This document shows positions 2,035-15,315 of a stretch of 46,924 bases of DNA, piece by piece. A model generated the notes under the pieces. The model searched no databases and was not told where the DNA came from. It was given only the letters and a program-made list of their open reading frames with translations. Made by a program: the position numbers and the translations under genes. The stretch is from assembly GCA_903833215.1 (NCBI GenBank), contig CAILEM010000135.1, forward strand, positions 1-46,924. Direction: 5' to 3'. Origin of the DNA: an uncultured Armatimonadota bacterium (GTDB taxonomy: Bacteria; Armatimonadota; Fimbriimonadia; Fimbriimonadales; Fimbriimonadaceae). Numbering within the stretch: position 1 is the first letter of the stretch; every line of letters begins with the position of its first letter.

Positions 2035-4293
2035 GTGAACTTAGCAGCGCTCTTACTTCTTCCCTCGGGCCACATTGCTGCGGCGCCGAGTTTGCCTCCA
2101 GTGGTACCAAAGCCGGTGTCCATGCACGTGGGAACCGGCAGGGGATTTACGGTTTCGCGGAACACGCTCCTTGTCGACGAGAACGGAACGACCGCGTCCG
2201 CACTCCTCCAATCCTTGCTAAAACGCGGCGCTGGCTTCACGCTGAAGACCGCCAAACACGGCAATACACGCGGTGCCATCTCCCTCATCAAAGCCCCTAA
2301 AGGCGCGCTCCGGCAGGGCGAATACAAGCTGCACTCCGGTAGCGATGGCATCCGAATCTGGTTCGGAGACAAAGGTGGTGCAGTCTACGCAGTCCAGACT
2401 CTGCGCCAGTTGCTGCCCCAAGCCATCGAAGGACCAAAGCCATCTACAACCACCAAATGGTCGGTTCCAGCGATTGAGATCACCGACTATCCCCGGTTCT
2501 CGTGGCGCGGTATGCACCTCGACGTTTCACGTCATTTCTTCCAGCCATCATTCATCGAGAAATACCTCGACTACATATCGATGATGAAGATGAACGTGTT
2601 CCACTGGCACTTGGTGGATGACGGCGGTTGGCGAATTGAAATTGAGAAGTATCCCAAGCTCACCTCCGTTGGCGCGTGGCGGTACGGCATTACCACCGGT
2701 TGGGATCAAAGCAAGTTGAGCTATGGTGCCGAGGCGGGGGCCAAGTACGGCGGGTTCTACACCAAAGCTCAAGTTCGTGAGATCGTCAAATACGCCGCAG
2801 ACCGCGACATCAACGTGGTGCCAGAGATCGAAATGCCAGGCCATACGATGCCTGTCTTGGCGGCTTACCCGGACCTGATGTGCCAGAACCAACCGGCATC
2901 TGCCGTCTCAGGACAGCCAAGCTCTAACGTGTACTGCGTCGGCAATGAGAAGACGTTTGGATTTATCCAAGACGTGCTCGACGAAGTGATGGAGATGTTC
3001 CCGTCGAAGTGGATTCACATCGGCGGAGACGAAGTCGACAAGTCGTATTGGCATCGATGCTCGCTCTGCCAAGAGAAAATGAAGGCAGAGGGGTTGAAGA
3101 ATGAGGAATCGCTCCAGAGCTACTTCGTCAAGCGCATCGATAAGTACCTGGCTTCCAAAGGTCGTCGGCTGATGGGTTGGGATGAGATTCTTGAAGGAGG
3201 ACTCGCCCCAGGGGCAACGGTTATGTCGTGGCGCGGTATCGATGGCGGCATTGCCGCTGCGAAATCCGGGCATGACGTTGTGATGTCGCCGACCTCGCAT
3301 TGCTACTTCGACTTCGCCTATTCCGGTCAGTCAACAGAGCATGTTTACACGTTTGATCCGGTTCCGGCCGCACTTAATGCCACCCAAGCCAAGCACGTCC
3401 TTGGCGGACAGGCCAACGTTTGGACGGAGTGGATCCCTACTGAAGCTCGTGCTGAGTTCATGATTTGGCCGCGAATGGGGGCAATGGCCGAAACCCTATG
3501 GTCGCCCAAAGCTGGCCGTGACACCGGCGAATTCATGGGACGCGTTTCCTCGCTGTTCGGAAGGCTTGACCGACTTGGATCTAGCTACTTCCTGCCAGCT
3601 CCGCAGGTAGCAATGAGCGCCATCTTGTTCAAAGGCAAAGCCAAGGTTGAAGCGATTCAGGACAAGCAAATGCCGGGCAAGCTGCACTACTCCATCGATG
3701 GCACGGTGCCCACCCTAAAGTCGCCGCTGTATACGAAGCCGGTGACGGTCACCAAAGCTGCATCCATTCGCTTCGCGTATCTGACTCCTTCCGGAAAGCC
3801 GGGCGATATCGCTCAAGTGGACTGTCTGCCGGCCCACACCGAGAAGGTTGCCAATGTCCAGAACGGTTGGAAAGCCGCTTACTACGAAGGCTCGTGGACG
3901 GCGGTGCCGAATTTCGCGAAGTTGAAACCGGTGATCTCCGGGTTTATGAATCGGATCGGCTTTGACATTCGCCATCACGATGAGAACTTCGCCCTCGACC
4001 TCAACGGTTACTTCAAGGCACCTAAAGACGGCGTCTATCACTTCGAGATTTCGAGTGACGACGGTTCCATTCTTAAGGTCGGTGGTGCGACCGTCATCAA
4101 TCATGATGGTTCGCACGGTGGGACGATGAAGGATGGCAACGTGTGGCTACCGAAGGGCTGGCACAAGATCGAAATCGGCTACTACCAGGGAAGTGGGGCT
4201 TACAGCCTGAGCTTGGCGGTAAAGGTCCCCGGCACCAGCAAAATAGCCAAGGCAGATTCATTTGTGTATTCCCACGGGCCGGGTCGGGATTAG
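2035..4293 (+). CDS. secreted beta-N-acetylhexosaminidase, GH20, with PA14-like C-terminus
   Basis: 752 residues from GTG (an in-frame TAG at 2020 excludes an earlier start). A signal peptide (MNLAALLLLPSGHIAAA) is followed by a GH20b-like domain (~20-140), the GH20 TIM barrel (~150-500) with the catalytic pair D332-E333 in HIGGDEVD and HWHLVDDGGW, then a chitobiase-C/fibronectin-like segment (KLHYSIDGTVPT, ~550-590), and a PA14-type carbohydrate-binding fold (~610-745; DGVYHFEISSDDGS). It releases terminal GlcNAc/GalNAc from chitin oligomers, glycoproteins or peptidoglycan fragments by substrate-assisted hydrolysis, outside the cytoplasm. Single-gene unit; the lut operon follows. Confidence 0.93.
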   Translation: MNLAALLLLPSGHIAAAPSLPPVVPKPVSMHVGTGRGFTVSRNTLLVDENGTTASALLQSLLKRGAGFTLKTAKHGNTRGAISLIKAPKGALRQGEYKLHSGSDGIRIWFGDKGGAVYAVQTLRQLLPQAIEGPKPSTTTKWSVPAIEITDYPRFSWRGMHLDVSRHFFQPSFIEKYLDYISMMKMNVFHWHLVDDGGWRIEIEKYPKLTSVGAWRYGITTGWDQSKLSYGAEAGAKYGGFYTKAQVREIVKYAADRDINVVPEIEMPGHTMPVLAAYPDLMCQNQPASAVSGQPSSNVYCVGNEKTFGFIQDVLDEVMEMFPSKWIHIGGDEVDKSYWHRCSLCQEKMKAEGLKNEESLQSYFVKRIDKYLASKGRRLMGWDEILEGGLAPGATVMSWRGIDGGIAAAKSGHDVVMSPTSHCYFDFAYSGQSTEHVYTFDPVPAALNATQAKHVLGGQANVWTEWIPTEARAEFMIWPRMGAMAETLWSPKAGRDTGEFMGRVSSLFGRLDRLGSSYFLPAPQVAMSAILFKGKAKVEAIQDKQMPGKLHYSIDGTVPTLKSPLYTKPVTVTKAASIRFAYLTPSGKPGDIAQVDCLPAHTEKVANVQNGWKAAYYEGSWTAVPNFAKLKPVISGFMNRIGFDIRHHDENFALDLNGYFKAPKDGVYHFEISSDDGSILKVGGATVINHDGSHGGTMKDGNVWLPKGWHKIEIGYYQGSGAYSLSLAVKVPGTSKIAKADSFVYSHGPGRD

Positions 4294-10405: not shown

Positions 10406-10424
10406 CCTAGCGTTTCGCGCTAGG
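10406..10424 (-). terminator. perfect 7-bp stem-loop at the stop codon of the beta-helix gene
   Basis: CCTAGCG and CGCTAGG enclose TTTCG (plus-strand reading). The minus-strand TAG stop (10407-10409) is in the stem. No U tract follows on the minus strand. Confidence 0.55.
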
Positions 10425-12752
10425 TTTCAGGCTCACCTTCAACATCGCATATCCATCGATCTGGAAGTGCTCGACTCGAATCTTGTGCTTCGTTGCATCA
10501 AGACGTAGCGGAGCGGTGTATAGGGTTGGGCCCTGATACTTCCATGCGTTTGTGACGGCTGCCTTGCCGTCGACCCAAACTCGGGCGCCGTCGTCGGTGG
10601 TTACTTCCAGTGTGTAATTCCCGGCGGGAACGCTAAAGCTGCCATCGCAAATGGTTGCGAAGTGATCATTACCGGTGGCAGGGTCAAATGAGGCGCCCGC
10701 GAAGTCAAGCTTCGAAAGGTGGAGGTTCTTGATTGGCGTTCCAGAGATCAACGACTTGAAATCGTCAGCCTTGGTTCTTGGGTCGTTGGTCGCATCCCAC
10801 TTGAAGAATTTCACGTTCCAGTCGATTGGAGCGAAGAACTCGCTGAAACCGAACTTGACCGGCTTACCGGCGGGGGTTGCGATGCCACGGTGATCTACAG
10901 TTGCGGCACCTTTGTATTCCAACTGAATCTCGGTTTTGGTCGCCTGACTTGCGGGGAGATCAATATCAACAAAGCCTGGGACATCGCCCGATGTCTTCGA
11001 GAGGGCAAGGACTCCTGACTTCGCGAGTAGGCGCCAATGACCTACTGGACCCAAGATCTCGAATCGTCGACGTGCGACCCCTGCAGGGGCATTCGGGAGC
11101 TTTTCTCTGGCCCACAGCTTGGGAGAGTGGAAATCGTATGGTCCCCACTTGTCGACGAGGATATAGCGTTGACCTTTGAGTCCGCCTTTTTTGAGGAAGG
11201 CGCTAGGCGTGCTGGCCACCTGTTTGAGGGAAACGGGTGCACCGAGTTTCTTTTCGGCAATCAAACGATTCAGGTCTTGGAGACCAGCAGTGGGAGTCCA
11301 AGGCAAGTCGAGGCGGTGTAGATACTCGCTCACATTGTTGCTGGTTCCTGGGAGCGGTTGGCCACCGGGTGTGATGGTTCGCGGAGCCGCCTTACCTGGC
11401 GTAACGCTTCCCAGATCGAAGGTGCTTCCCGTGTTAACTCCTGCTTCCTTTAAGGCGGAGACGCATTGAAGGAACTGGTTTTCGGCCACGTGGGCACGAT
11501 GGGTGTTGCGAATCGAAATCGCGGGACCAGCACTGCGATCAAACACGTTACGCACGATCTGGTAGTCGCGGCTGTCAGTGTCGTGATACTTGCCATATCC
11601 CCAATTCTTGTCTGTAATCGGGTCCTGCCAAAGATTGATGGCGGTGTTCTCACGGATGAACTGGTTGCCCGTAATCGAGATATCTTGGCCATGCTCGATG
11701 GCGATCGACTCGCCGTTGAAGCCAAAAGTGTTGTCCTTGATCTGGGTGTCAAACGAATAGCCACCCCACACGCCATGCCAGCATTCGACCAGCTTGTTTC
11801 GGATGAACGCATTGCTGCTGAAGGTGGCTTCGATCGCGTTGCAGGGGGAATGGCTGAAGTCGTTGCCGTAGAGTACGTTGCCGTTGCATCCGCCCTTTCC
11901 GGTGTCCATCATCGTTTGCCCTGCCCACAGGAAGAACCCGTCACCGCCGTGGGTCACTGAGTTGAAGGCGAAGAGATTGTTGTTGCAGAGTTCGAAGATT
12001 AGGATTCCTGCGGAGTCCTGCCCTCGGTTGTAGACGCCATAAGAGAACCCGCGAACGCACCAGTCCATCTTGTTGAACTCGATACGGTTGTTGGACGATC
12101 GGTACATTCCCAGACCAATTCCGCTCAGGAATGAGAAATTGTTGTTGGTAACCTTGCCACCGTTCGATCGGTTGAGCATAAGACCGCACTGGCCGCCAAC
12201 GGCTCGCGTGCCTTTCACCTCGAACTTATTGCAGCCGTCGAGGTACATCGCTGCGCCATAACGGAACCACTCGCCATTCTCGTTGTGGTGGTAGCTCTGC
12301 CAATCGCTTTCGTCCTCTTTGTCAGGAGTCGACATCAGGCGTTGTTTCCAGTTGTAGGAAAAGTCGCTATTGAGGATGCGCAACCCGTTGCAGTGCGAAG
12401 CGAGGAGCCCGACCATGTAGCCATGGACATGAAGGTTCTTGATCGTGATGTTGTTCCCGATGACCTGAATGGCGAGCCCCTTGCGCTCATCCGGCTCTGT
12501 CGTCGCCGGAGTTCCTCGCAGGACTGCATCGTGAAAGTCCACGGTGAGGTTGTTTCCACGAATCACGATGGCTGGTGTCAGTGCCGGGATCTGTTCGTCG
12601 CCCGCCTTTTTCACACCCTGCTTGGTTGGAAGCAGATATTCCTTCGCGGTCACGACGCAACTCTTCGAAATGACAAGACCATTCTTGAGAGGCACGGTCG
12701 TCGATGACGGTGCCGAAAGCAAAACGAGTGCTGCACTCGCAATCAAAAGCAT
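10407..12752 (-). CDS. secreted right-handed beta-helix protein with PA14-like end
   Basis: 781 residues from ATG 12752 (MLLIASAALVLLSAP signal peptide). Upstream in-frame codons up to 12914 lack membrane-targeting sense, and a TACACT box lies 6 nt before this ATG. Residues ~30-430 are repeated short beta-strand turns rich in N-N and G (GNNITIKNLHVHG, SNNRIEFNKMDWC, GNQFIRENTAINLW), the NosD/pectate-lyase-like parallel beta-helix pattern. The C-terminus (~700-775; YTLEVTTDDGARVWVDGKA) resembles a PA14 carbohydrate-binding domain. Probably a polysaccharide lyase, hydrolase or binding protein; catalytic residues cannot be assigned. Extracellular or periplasmic. Confidence 0.8.
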   Translation of the reverse strand: MLLIASAALVLLSAPSSTTVPLKNGLVISKSCVVTAKEYLLPTKQGVKKAGDEQIPALTPAIVIRGNNLTVDFHDAVLRGTPATTEPDERKGLAIQVIGNNITIKNLHVHGYMVGLLASHCNGLRILNSDFSYNWKQRLMSTPDKEDESDWQSYHHNENGEWFRYGAAMYLDGCNKFEVKGTRAVGGQCGLMLNRSNGGKVTNNNFSFLSGIGLGMYRSSNNRIEFNKMDWCVRGFSYGVYNRGQDSAGILIFELCNNNLFAFNSVTHGGDGFFLWAGQTMMDTGKGGCNGNVLYGNDFSHSPCNAIEATFSSNAFIRNKLVECWHGVWGGYSFDTQIKDNTFGFNGESIAIEHGQDISITGNQFIRENTAINLWQDPITDKNWGYGKYHDTDSRDYQIVRNVFDRSAGPAISIRNTHRAHVAENQFLQCVSALKEAGVNTGSTFDLGSVTPGKAAPRTITPGGQPLPGTSNNVSEYLHRLDLPWTPTAGLQDLNRLIAEKKLGAPVSLKQVASTPSAFLKKGGLKGQRYILVDKWGPYDFHSPKLWAREKLPNAPAGVARRRFEILGPVGHWRLLAKSGVLALSKTSGDVPGFVDIDLPASQATKTEIQLEYKGAATVDHRGIATPAGKPVKFGFSEFFAPIDWNVKFFKWDATNDPRTKADDFKSLISGTPIKNLHLSKLDFAGASFDPATGNDHFATICDGSFSVPAGNYTLEVTTDDGARVWVDGKAAVTNAWKYQGPTLYTAPLRLDATKHKIRVEHFQIDGYAMLKVSLKPSAKR

Positions 12753-12758
12753 GTGCGT

Positions 12759-12764
12759 AGTGTA
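12759..12764 (-). promoter_or_regulatory. TACACT box 6 nt before ATG 12752
   Basis: Minus-strand TACACT-ACGCAC-ATG; supports ATG 12752 and a leaderless mRNA for the beta-helix gene. Confidence 0.4.
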
Positions 12765-12799
12765 CATCTGTGGGCTCGTCGCTTCGATGATCGTCCTTC

Positions 12800-12818
12800 G
12801 AACGTGTCTTGCACGTTC
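12800..12818. promoter_or_regulatory. 7-bp-arm inverted repeat upstream of the beta-helix gene
   Basis: GAACGTG-TCTTG-CACGTTC, perfect arms. Centred about 45 bp upstream of the -10 box, so a plausible operator or activator site for the beta-helix gene. The regulator is unknown. Confidence 0.35.
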
Positions 12819-13298
12819 CTTCGTTTTATGCTGGTCCATAGCTGGGTTGGGCGCTCGCACCGATTGGTGCTGTCTCTCCCCGCCGTCCCGAACCGTCGCT
12901 TTTTCGTTCGTCATCGATGGACGCGCGCCAAACTCACCCCTTCGGGCTCAGACAGTGGCGCGCTGACTGCCCAAAGCCAAGCGAACGGCGACGATTATGG
13001 ACGTCGGAGGGCCCGTCCACCGTAGCTCTGCGAAGGAGGGAGACGAGTTGGACTTTCCCATCCGGACCCTGCGGGTCGTTGTTCGTTCCGCGGTTGTATC
13101 TGAGATGCTGAACCTACGTGAATGCATTCGGTACGCGCAGATGCCGGATCATCCAAGAAGTGCCCTTGATATTGGGCAGCAGGTAAGCCTTACTGTGCAG
13201 ACCAATGGCGTGATGGGATGCATCTGCTATACGTGGCAGACACCGTTTATTCGAGGGGGTATCCTAACTTGGTGGGTCGGCTTCAGAAGTCTTCGTCT
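12819..13298. other. gene-poor divergent spacer
   Basis: Roughly 480 bp with no convincing coding frame; the 149-residue frame at 12997-13446 has no recognisable features and overlaps the next gene. It holds an 8-bp inverted repeat (GCGCGCCA at 12923-12930 with TGGCGCGC at 12956-12963) and a perfect palindrome GAATGCATTC at 13120-13129. No structured RNA family was recognised. Confidence 0.4.
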
Positions 13299-13442: not shown

Positions 13443-14498
13443 ATGAAAGTTGCTCTCATCGGATATGGCTCTAGTGGCCGCAGTACGCTTTATCGCGCTG
13501 CAGCCAGGGGATTGGCGAAAGGGGACGTCACTGCGGTGCCGGTACCGGACGAGCGGTTTGATCAAATCGTTGCCCAAGTTAAGCCGAAGAAGCAAACTCC
13601 GGCAACGGTGATTTTGCATGACGACCTCGACCCGATTCAGGGTGGTGGAAAGGCGTTTTCGCTCAAGCTGATCGATAGTGCCAAGAAAGCAGAGATCTTG
13701 CTGCACGTCGTACGAGGCTTCGAGTCACCGGTTGTTCCGTACTTCGACACAGTAGACCCTGTGCGCGATCAGGATGCGATTGACGTTGAATTGGTACTCG
13801 CCGACCTTCAAATCGTCGAAAATCGCTTGGAACGACTGAAAAAATCAGCAACTCTCAAGACTTCCGGTTCTCCCGATTATATGGAGAACGACCTCTTCAC
13901 GCGCATTAAGGAGCCGCTCGAGAATGGTCAGGCCATTCGAGCGATGGACCTTTCCGAAGACGATCAAGCGATCGTTCGGAATCACCAATTCCTGAGCGCG
14001 AAGCCGATGGTTGTTGCGTACAACGTCTCCGAGGCAGAAGCAGCAAACCCATCCGACCGCCTCAAGAAGCAGATTGCGGAGTTGAAGGAGCGTGGCACAC
14101 CCGCCTTCACCGTTTGTGCGACGATTGAAGAGGAGATTGCCGAACTCGATCCTGCCGATCAAGCCGAGTTCCTTCAGGATCTCGGTCTGACCGAGCCGGC
14201 GAGCGCCCGGGTGATTCGTGCGACTTACGATGCACTTGGACTCATCACCTTCTTCACCGCAGGCGAAAACGATACGCGCGCCTGGGCACTGAAGAAGGGT
14301 AGTAACGCACTGAAAGCGGCCGCAACGATTCACAACGATATCGCCAAAGGTTTCATCCGCGCCGAGATCGTGCATTACGAGGAATACTTGGCAGCAGGAT
14401 CGCTTGATGCCGCCTACTCGGCAGGAAAGATGACCCTCGAAGGCAAAGAATATGTGATGCGAGATGGAGATCTCATCCACATTCGAAACAAGAGTTAG
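13443..14498 (+). CDS. YchF/Obg-family ATPase-like protein with altered P-loop
   Basis: 351 residues. The C-terminal half matches YchF closely: LGLITFFTAGENDTRAW starts the TGS domain, followed by KGFIRAEIVHYEEY and an EGKEYVMRDGDLIHIR end. The N-terminal nucleotide site is altered: the P-loop is G7-YGSS-G12-R13-S14-T15 (Lys replaced by Arg), and the usual DxAGLVKGAS switch segment is replaced by HDDLDPIQGGGKAFS. The NxxE motif (YNVSEAE), which gives YchF its ATP preference, remains. YchF binds ribosomes and is redox-regulated in other bacteria. This copy may bind but not hydrolyse nucleotide. Stands alone; mlaE follows 37 nt later. Confidence 0.85.
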   Translation: MKVALIGYGSSGRSTLYRAAARGLAKGDVTAVPVPDERFDQIVAQVKPKKQTPATVILHDDLDPIQGGGKAFSLKLIDSAKKAEILLHVVRGFESPVVPYFDTVDPVRDQDAIDVELVLADLQIVENRLERLKKSATLKTSGSPDYMENDLFTRIKEPLENGQAIRAMDLSEDDQAIVRNHQFLSAKPMVVAYNVSEAEAANPSDRLKKQIAELKERGTPAFTVCATIEEEIAELDPADQAEFLQDLGLTEPASARVIRATYDALGLITFFTAGENDTRAWALKKGSNALKAAATIHNDIAKGFIRAEIVHYEEYLAAGSLDAAYSAGKMTLEGKEYVMRDGDLIHIRNKS

Positions 14499-14535: not shown

Positions 14536-15315
14536 ATGGCCACGAAGCCTCAGTCTATATGGGCTCCGATCACCGTGCCGGTGATGTCCTTCCTCACGTT
14601 TACGGGTGAAGTCGGCATGATCTTCGCGGATGCGGTCAAACGCTGCCTGCGACCACCATTCGAACTCGAAGAGACGATCAACCAGATGGCATTCATCGGG
14701 GTTGCTTCTGTGCCAATCGTTGCCTTAACCGGCTTCTTCTCGGGGGCAGTTCTTTCGCTGTATCTCTCGCAGCTTCTCACCGAGTACCACGCGACTTCCT
14801 TCGTCGGCGCAACGATCGGATTGACCGTTACGCGCGAAATCGGGCCCGTTATTGCCGGGATCATGGTTGCGGCTCGATGCGGTTCGGCGATGGCAGCCCA
14901 AATCGGCACGATGAAGGTAACTGAGCAGATGGATGCCCTTCGAATGCTCAGCGTTCATCCCACCAATTATTTGGTCATTCCAAGAATTATCGCTGGCATC
15001 ACCATGCTCCCCGTGCTTGCGTTGGTGTGTATGTGGTCGGGAGTCGTAGGTGGTCTCATTATTGCGGGCACCGAGCATGTGCCGTACGCGGTCTTCATGC
15101 ACTCAGTGACTCACTACGTTCAGCCCGCTGACATCATGCGTGGCTTGGTCAAAACTCCCTTCTTCGGCCTTATCACCGCTTTAGTCGCCAGCCAGCAAGG
15201 TATGCGGACAACGGACGGGGCAGTCGGCGTCGGTCGATCCACCACGAACACTGTCGTGGTTTCGATGATCCTCATCTACATCACGAACTTCTTGATCGCT
15301 CGAATGCTCTACTGA
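14536..15315 (+). CDS. mlaE: MlaE-family permease (lipid transport, YrbE)
   Basis: 259 residues with the MlaE fold: an N-terminal amphipathic segment, then about five membrane helices, with the signature [31 protein letters not shown] region and late [12 protein letters not shown]. In Mla systems this permease pairs with an ATPase (MlaF) and an MCE protein (MlaD) to move phospholipids between inner and outer membranes. Neither partner is adjacent. The start codon lies in a palindrome ATGACGTCAT (14528-14537). The last 7 nt overlap the convergent ruvB end. Confidence 0.9.

Follow-up and report, generated by a model that had tools for sequence, protein, structure and literature searches.

Many bacteria carry, instead of the normal YchF, a relative without the usual ATP switch, which suggests that the job of YchF can be done without that switch. 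The form analysed here is encoded in the window, that is, the whole 46,924-nucleotide stretch of DNA that was analysed, from an uncultured bacterium of the Fimbriimonadaceae (Armatimonadota, class Fimbriimonadia, hereafter the class). Nearly all organisms have the translation-associated NTPase YchF/OLA1, for which neither the function nor the requirement for ATP hydrolysis has been settled; a single profile (TIGR00092, or DUF933 alone) spans two distinct forms of it. A literature search of open papers, with most subscription papers outside it, found no description of a switch-deficient YchF form.

Results

A YchF homologue whose nucleotide site is altered

An initial annotation had recognised the gene as a YchF homologue by its TGS end and its NxxE motif and had called its nucleotide site altered, and it was right on both counts. 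The C-terminal domain matched PF06071 over residues 267-348 with 105.3 bits (E 1.8e-30; cut-off 27), which places the protein in the YchF superfamily by its DUF933 domain, and the NxxE motif is present as N194-V-S-E197. Against the TIGR00092 profile the protein scored 255.9 bits, under the curated cut-off of 279.2, so that it is not a canonical YchF equivalog. Its best sequence match among solved structures was H. influenzae YchF (1jal, E 3.8e-65), and an AlphaFold2 model built from a 76-sequence alignment had a mean pLDDT of 93.5 and a pTM of 0.88. The first 15 PDB matches in Foldseek were all YchF/OLA1. VIA-align ranked YchF in complex with the 50S subunit first (8kie_y, Z 36.1, rmsd 2.3, 346 residues aligned), by a small margin over 5ee9 (Z 34.8), and the G, helical and TGS domains had the same arrangement as in the solved structures of YchF; all of its first 11 PDB entries were YchF/OLA1 (Z 31.9-36.1). 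The conservation of the TGS domain and the match of the model to a 50S-bound YchF suggest that the window protein binds the ribosome.

Relatives from the same genus (L032 and L033, 80-81% identity) have the same Arg in the P-loop and the same HDDLDPI(Q/S)G. Selection on the gene is purifying, with a dN of 0.14 against the two nearest relatives and a dS that is 2.7 or saturated. With relatives sharing the motifs and dN far below dS, a sequencing error or chance is very unlikely and a pseudogene is ruled out. The features of the gene are collected in Table 1.

Table 1 Coordinates of the ychF-like gene, its motifs and the gene downstream of it within the window.
Feature	Position	Strand	Basis
CDS, switch-deficient YchF-like protein, 351 aa	13443..14498	+	ATG start, open frame; model pLDDT 93.5
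P-loop, residues 7-14, GYGSSGRS: Arg13 for Lys; canonical Asn (E. coli N12) absent	13461..13484	+	Alignment
Residues 19-32, site of deleted switch I (FCTIEPN, with E. coli C35, T36)	13497..13538	+	Gap in 55/55 class variants; T36 in 63/63 canonical
Residues 59-69, HDDLDPIQGGG replacing G3/switch II; D60 aligns with Walker B Asp	13617..13649	+	Alignment
Phe93, equivalent of E. coli F107	13719..13721	+	Alignment
Residues 95-101, loop of E. coli catalytic His114; here SPVVPYF, no His	13725..13745	+	Alignment
Residues 194-197, NVSE, kept adenine-type G4 motif NxxE	14022..14033	+	Alignment
TGS / YchF-GTPase_C (DUF933) domain, residues 267-348	14241..14486	+	PF06071 match; H297, F304, I305, R306 invariant
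mlaE-like permease gene, 37 bp past the stop of the ychF-like gene	14536-15315	Same as ychF-like gene	Named by eye

Losses and retentions at the nucleotide site

Sites were counted in an alignment of 242 proteins, on distinct sequences in four groups: 63 canonical YchFs, 55 Fimbriimonadia variants (from 74 class genomes with a variant), 33 variants of other Armatimonadota, and a set of 42 variants from other phyla or from records without assignment, of which 39 were distinct. Loci on named contigs were assigned to Armatimonadota or elsewhere from titles and similarity, and some titles look misbinned (e.g. L162, L172). Outside the counts stood 47 Armatimonadota named-contig loci, many of them repeating genomes already counted, and the fragments L070 and L254.

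Canonical YchF was close to uniform, with N12, K15, T36, G75, F107 and N207 (E. coli numbering) each in 63/63 sequences and H114 in 62/63. In the window protein the G1 motif, GxxNVGKS/T in canonical YchF, reads GYGSSGRST and thus has neither N12 nor K15, and the switch I segment with the G2 Thr is deleted (T36 in none of the 55 class variants). The G3 motif DxxG retains its Asp as D60 and has its Gly substituted, and Y100 occupies the column of the catalytic His114, followed by F101 in a loop that holds no His. The adenine-type G4 motif is intact (N194-E197). Both substitutions that the initial annotation had pointed out, Arg for the P-loop Lys at residue 13 and the replacement of the Walker B/switch segment (canonical DIAGLVKGASxGEGLGN) at residues 59-69, were confirmed; the loss of switch I and the changed His114 loop (Phe101 in the window copy) were absent from it and were found in the alignment.

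Across the 55 Fimbriimonadia variants, N12 was absent throughout, switch I with its G2 Thr was missing from every sequence and the G3 Gly was found in only one. The Walker B Asp (Asp72), F107, N207 and E210 were each present in 55/55, as were R105 and the His, Arg, Glu and Trp of the TGS domain. By these counts the base side of the pocket appears to be kept in the class and much of the gamma-phosphate/catalytic side to be gone. The invariance of the base-pocket Phe, Asn and Glu favours continued adenine-nucleotide binding by the window protein over a purely ribosome-binding role, the two options that had been put forward from the sequence.

Outside the class, a Thr in the T36 column was seen in 1/33 other Armatimonadota variants and in 0/39 distinct variants of other phyla, and an Asn in the N12 column in 1/33 and 2/39, respectively. 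The P-loop Lys was retained in all 33 other Armatimonadota variants and, outside the phylum, in 38/39 distinct variants, where the G3 Gly was kept in 23/39 and a His aligned with H114 in 35/39. The 47 loci left out of the counts had N207 and E210 without exception (47/47) and a Thr at T36 in two cases. A loop His was placed one residue later in 47 of the 53 Fimbriimonadia variants that could be parsed by pattern (2/55 unparsed), the window copy being among the six without it. Judged from the alignment, losses beyond switch I/G2 Thr and the P-loop Asn are graded across the variant group.

The emphasis that had been laid on Arg13 proved misplaced. Residue 13 is Lys in 36, Arg in 17 and Cys in 2 of the 55 class variants, so that a positive charge is kept in 53/55, and on a quick tree of these sequences the state Lys versus not-Lys required eight parsimony changes, at least two of them forced by starred branches. 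Arg13 is a recurrent, mostly charge-keeping change and not the defining event, and Lys to Arg as the key change was rejected as the main point because Lys, Arg and Cys alternate within the class.

Published residue roles allow a comparison with the human protein. According to Table 1 of a review (PMC10144078), His114 is critical for ATPase activity, hOLA1 Asn230 is needed for nucleotide binding, hOLA1 Phe127 serves base recognition and hOLA1 Asn32 makes a main-chain amide contact to the gamma-phosphate. The three hOLA1 residues would map onto N194, F93 and the P-loop of the window protein, respectively, with F93 matched to Phe127 through the numbering offset. Since the contact of the P-loop Asn in hOLA1 is made by the main-chain amide, its replacement alone need not matter.

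The retained residues also bear on whether the variant is still an ATPase, with a rebuilt active site (Lys or Arg in the P-loop, D60/D61 for Walker B and a loop His in most relatives) that cycles on the ribosome like canonical YchF. G7, G12, T15 and D60 are invariant across 26 aligned rows, which fits this reading, as do the charge at position 13, the loop His and the intact base pocket. According to a review (PMC8779481), overproduction of E. coli YchF makes cells more sensitive to ROS only if its ATP site is intact; a mutated site abolishes the effect, which implies that ATP use matters for that phenotype and lends the reading further support. However, switch I with the G2 Thr is gone from every class variant and the G3 Gly from all but one, and neither the P-loop Lys nor the loop His is left in the window copy. 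We regard a rebuilt ATPase as unlikely, though a serious contender.

Mutual exclusion of variant and canonical YchF

The initial annotation had noted a single copy, which is true of the window but not of the genome, where a search found a canonical YchF at G000:C139:15995-17083. This homologue (L087) shares 34% identity with the window protein over residues 28-347, scores 514.6 bits to TIGR00092 and carries the canonical P-loop, FCTIEPN, DIAGLVKGAS and HVAG. Holding both forms in one genome, as here, is exceptional in the class. Across 113 Fimbriimonadia genomes, 70 had the variant only, 31 canonical YchF only, four both (one of them 73% complete) and eight none, with many forms assigned from the bit score only, motifs also read at 55 variant and 22 canonical loci of the class, a partial match in G082 counted as canonical and confirmed by motifs, and G086 and G093 counted as variant from fragments by score. 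Restricting the set to the 88 class genomes with >=90% completeness and <=5% contamination gave 57, 26, 3 and 2, respectively; about 19.8 genomes with both forms would be expected under independence, compared to the three seen (Fisher p 8.6e-17, relatedness ignored).

Relatedness was taken into account on a RuvB tree of 70 genomes (the 30 nearest and 40 chosen out of 107 with RuvB), a single gene serving as proxy for the species tree. Nine independent pairs on starred branches differed in the variant, and canonical YchF differed in the opposite direction in 7.7 of the nine on average and in the same direction in none (median p 0.008); adding three genomes with neither form gave 6.9 opposite and a median p of 0.016. 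The pattern was replicated in the class of the Acidobacteriota genome G295, probably Vicinamibacteria, where a hand tally of 149 genomes gave 92 with the variant only, 46 with canonical YchF only, five with both and six with none (Fisher p 5e-26, relatedness ignored), the bit-score split having been checked by motif on 19 loci that included both copies of all five genomes with both. G119, G298 and G300 also hold both forms. In the genus of the window, G007 likewise has the two together. Overall, these data support that the variant replaces canonical YchF across genomes.

The exclusion might instead reflect lineage history and not a shared role, the variant being a paralogue with a different function. 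The separate clades of the two forms (see below) and the genomes that keep both, including that of the window, are consistent with this; the exclusion nevertheless recurred, both among independent pairs and within another phylum, and just 2/88 high-quality class genomes have neither form, so that we consider a separate function distinctly improbable. A decaying duplicate beside the functional canonical copy in the genome of the window, as that copy and the loss of both P-loop Lys and loop His might hint, is very improbable given a dN far below dS, an intact frame, a confident fold and genus relatives (G012, G016) that have the variant form only.

Two Fimbriimonadia genomes that are 97-98% complete, G045 and G091, yielded neither YchF form: G045 had no match at E 1e-10, and the one match in G091 was weak and covered just the end of the G domain. 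The cause is either a gap in the assembly or a genuine loss of this near-universal gene. In other Armatimonadota, nine genomes (G222, G247, G253-G256, G261, G270, G273) had two YchF-family matches each, which may be two variants, both forms or fragments.

Spread and phylogeny

The best 80 of 515 named-contig relatives set the window within the Fimbriimonadia of the Armatimonadota. They comprised 75 variants and five canonical YchFs by motif, and the titles of variants among these best 80 also name Acidobacteriota, Chloroflexota, Melainabacteria, Gemmatimonadota and Planctomycetota. In 19 genomes with such loci, for which completeness is not given (L164 and L182 come from records titled complete genome), 17 had the variant only and two had both. 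In an unrooted tree of 89 chosen rows, the 33 canonical sequences formed one clade (100/100), the 21 class variants formed another (100/100) nested among Armatimonadota variants, and five other Armatimonadota variants joined the variants of other phyla. Because a plant YchF in the alignment has the canonical G3, the switch loss is probably derived, most simply through a single event.

The canonical copies of the Fimbriimonadaceae (L072-L091) mostly read AGNVGLPNVGKST, their first strand bearing Asn at the position of Ile in E. coli (CGIVGLP), and they branch near the E. coli and Obscuribacter copies, apart from the core Armatimonadota canonical clade. Forcing them together with 12 core Armatimonadota canonical rows was rejected (p-AU 0.02, for a group named after the tree was seen). 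A horizontal gain of canonical YchF in the Fimbriimonadaceae is possible and a lead only.

Gene neighbourhood

Eight window genes, named by eye, were compared with 39 class loci, several of which have short flanks, and with 20 canonical loci. No widely conserved neighbour, and hence no functional lead, was found among the eight genes in the 39 class loci, and none of the eight was matched in any of the 20 canonical loci. The mlaE-like gene lay upstream on the opposite strand in 7/39 class loci and downstream in one more, which suggests that its position in the window is a local rearrangement; ruvB was near the variant gene in 5/39 and der in 4/39. Elsewhere in the window, a hexosaminidase-like gene (2035-4293) and a beta-helix-like gene (10407-12914) are both large and secreted-looking, with seemingly similar PA14-like ends as judged by eye from the translations.

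Discussion

The homology and the fold, the motifs lost and kept, the purifying selection, the spread and the replicated mutual exclusion were computed here and underlie the proposal that a switch-deficient YchF takes the place of the canonical protein, to which we give roughly even chances. The window protein belongs to a large group of YchF relatives in which the TGS domain, the pocket for the adenine base and the fold of three domains are retained, and switch I with the G2 Thr is lost together with the P-loop Asn; the Fimbriimonadia have also lost the G3 Gly, and the window copy further the P-loop Lys and the loop His. Under the proposal, the variant most likely binds either the ribosome or tRNA, in a conformation that is fixed or held by a nucleotide, and fills the role of canonical YchF in the cell with no canonical cycle of ATP hydrolysis, a bound adenine nucleotide acting as a structural cofactor or a passive (static) ligand. 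We infer ribosome binding, retained nucleotide binding, absent hydrolysis and a ribosomal nature of the shared role. The fuller historical version, in which an ancient loss of the ATP switch made a form of YchF that fills the ribosomal role without canonical hydrolysis and, in several phyla, has time and again either supplanted the canonical form or given way to it, is more tentative, and we would put it somewhat below an even call.

Several points speak against the proposal. The P-loop Lys is kept in 36/55 class variants and in nearly all others, and since Lys, G3 Gly and His are kept in many relatives, these may still hydrolyse ATP, the loss being graded. In addition, according to the review PMC8779481, the N-terminal ATPase domain of E. 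coli YchF, which is the part altered here, seems to be a major ribosome contact, the ATPase is stimulated by ribosome binding, and the ROS effect depends on the ATP site. The genomes that hold both forms, four in the class, five in the Acidobacteriota class, and G119, G298 and G300, count against the proposal as well. In a further study, E. coli YchF is reported to make contact with IF3 and with the small subunit and to keep the translation of leaderless mRNA in check (PMC8138138). If the fuller historical version holds, YchF does not need its defining ATPase cycle for its core function, and the adenine nucleotide that it binds serves as a structural cofactor. Were a natural YchF without the switch to replace the canonical form in many genomes, hydrolysis would be uncoupled from the functions of the adenine pocket and of ribosome binding.

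Similar to YchF/OLA1 (TIGR00092, redox-regulated ATPase YchF), the window protein has the three-domain architecture, the fold (Z 36), the NxxE G4 motif, the base-pocket Phe and the TGS/DUF933 domain; it differs in having no switch I and no C35/T36, a changed G3 and His114 loop, and Arg for the P-loop Lys. Its profile similarity to the YchF-related putative GTPase PRK09602 / NF007171 is weak and limited to residues 70-236, and at 32.2 bits compared to a cut-off of 387 bits the protein is not a member of that family. PseudoGTPases are GTPases that miss switch or catalytic residues, with the G-domain fold retained and the G motifs eroded. The window protein likewise combines a G-domain fold with eroded G motifs, but, unlike in pseudoGTPases, the host protein is near-universal and translation-associated, and many genomes have the eroded form in its stead.
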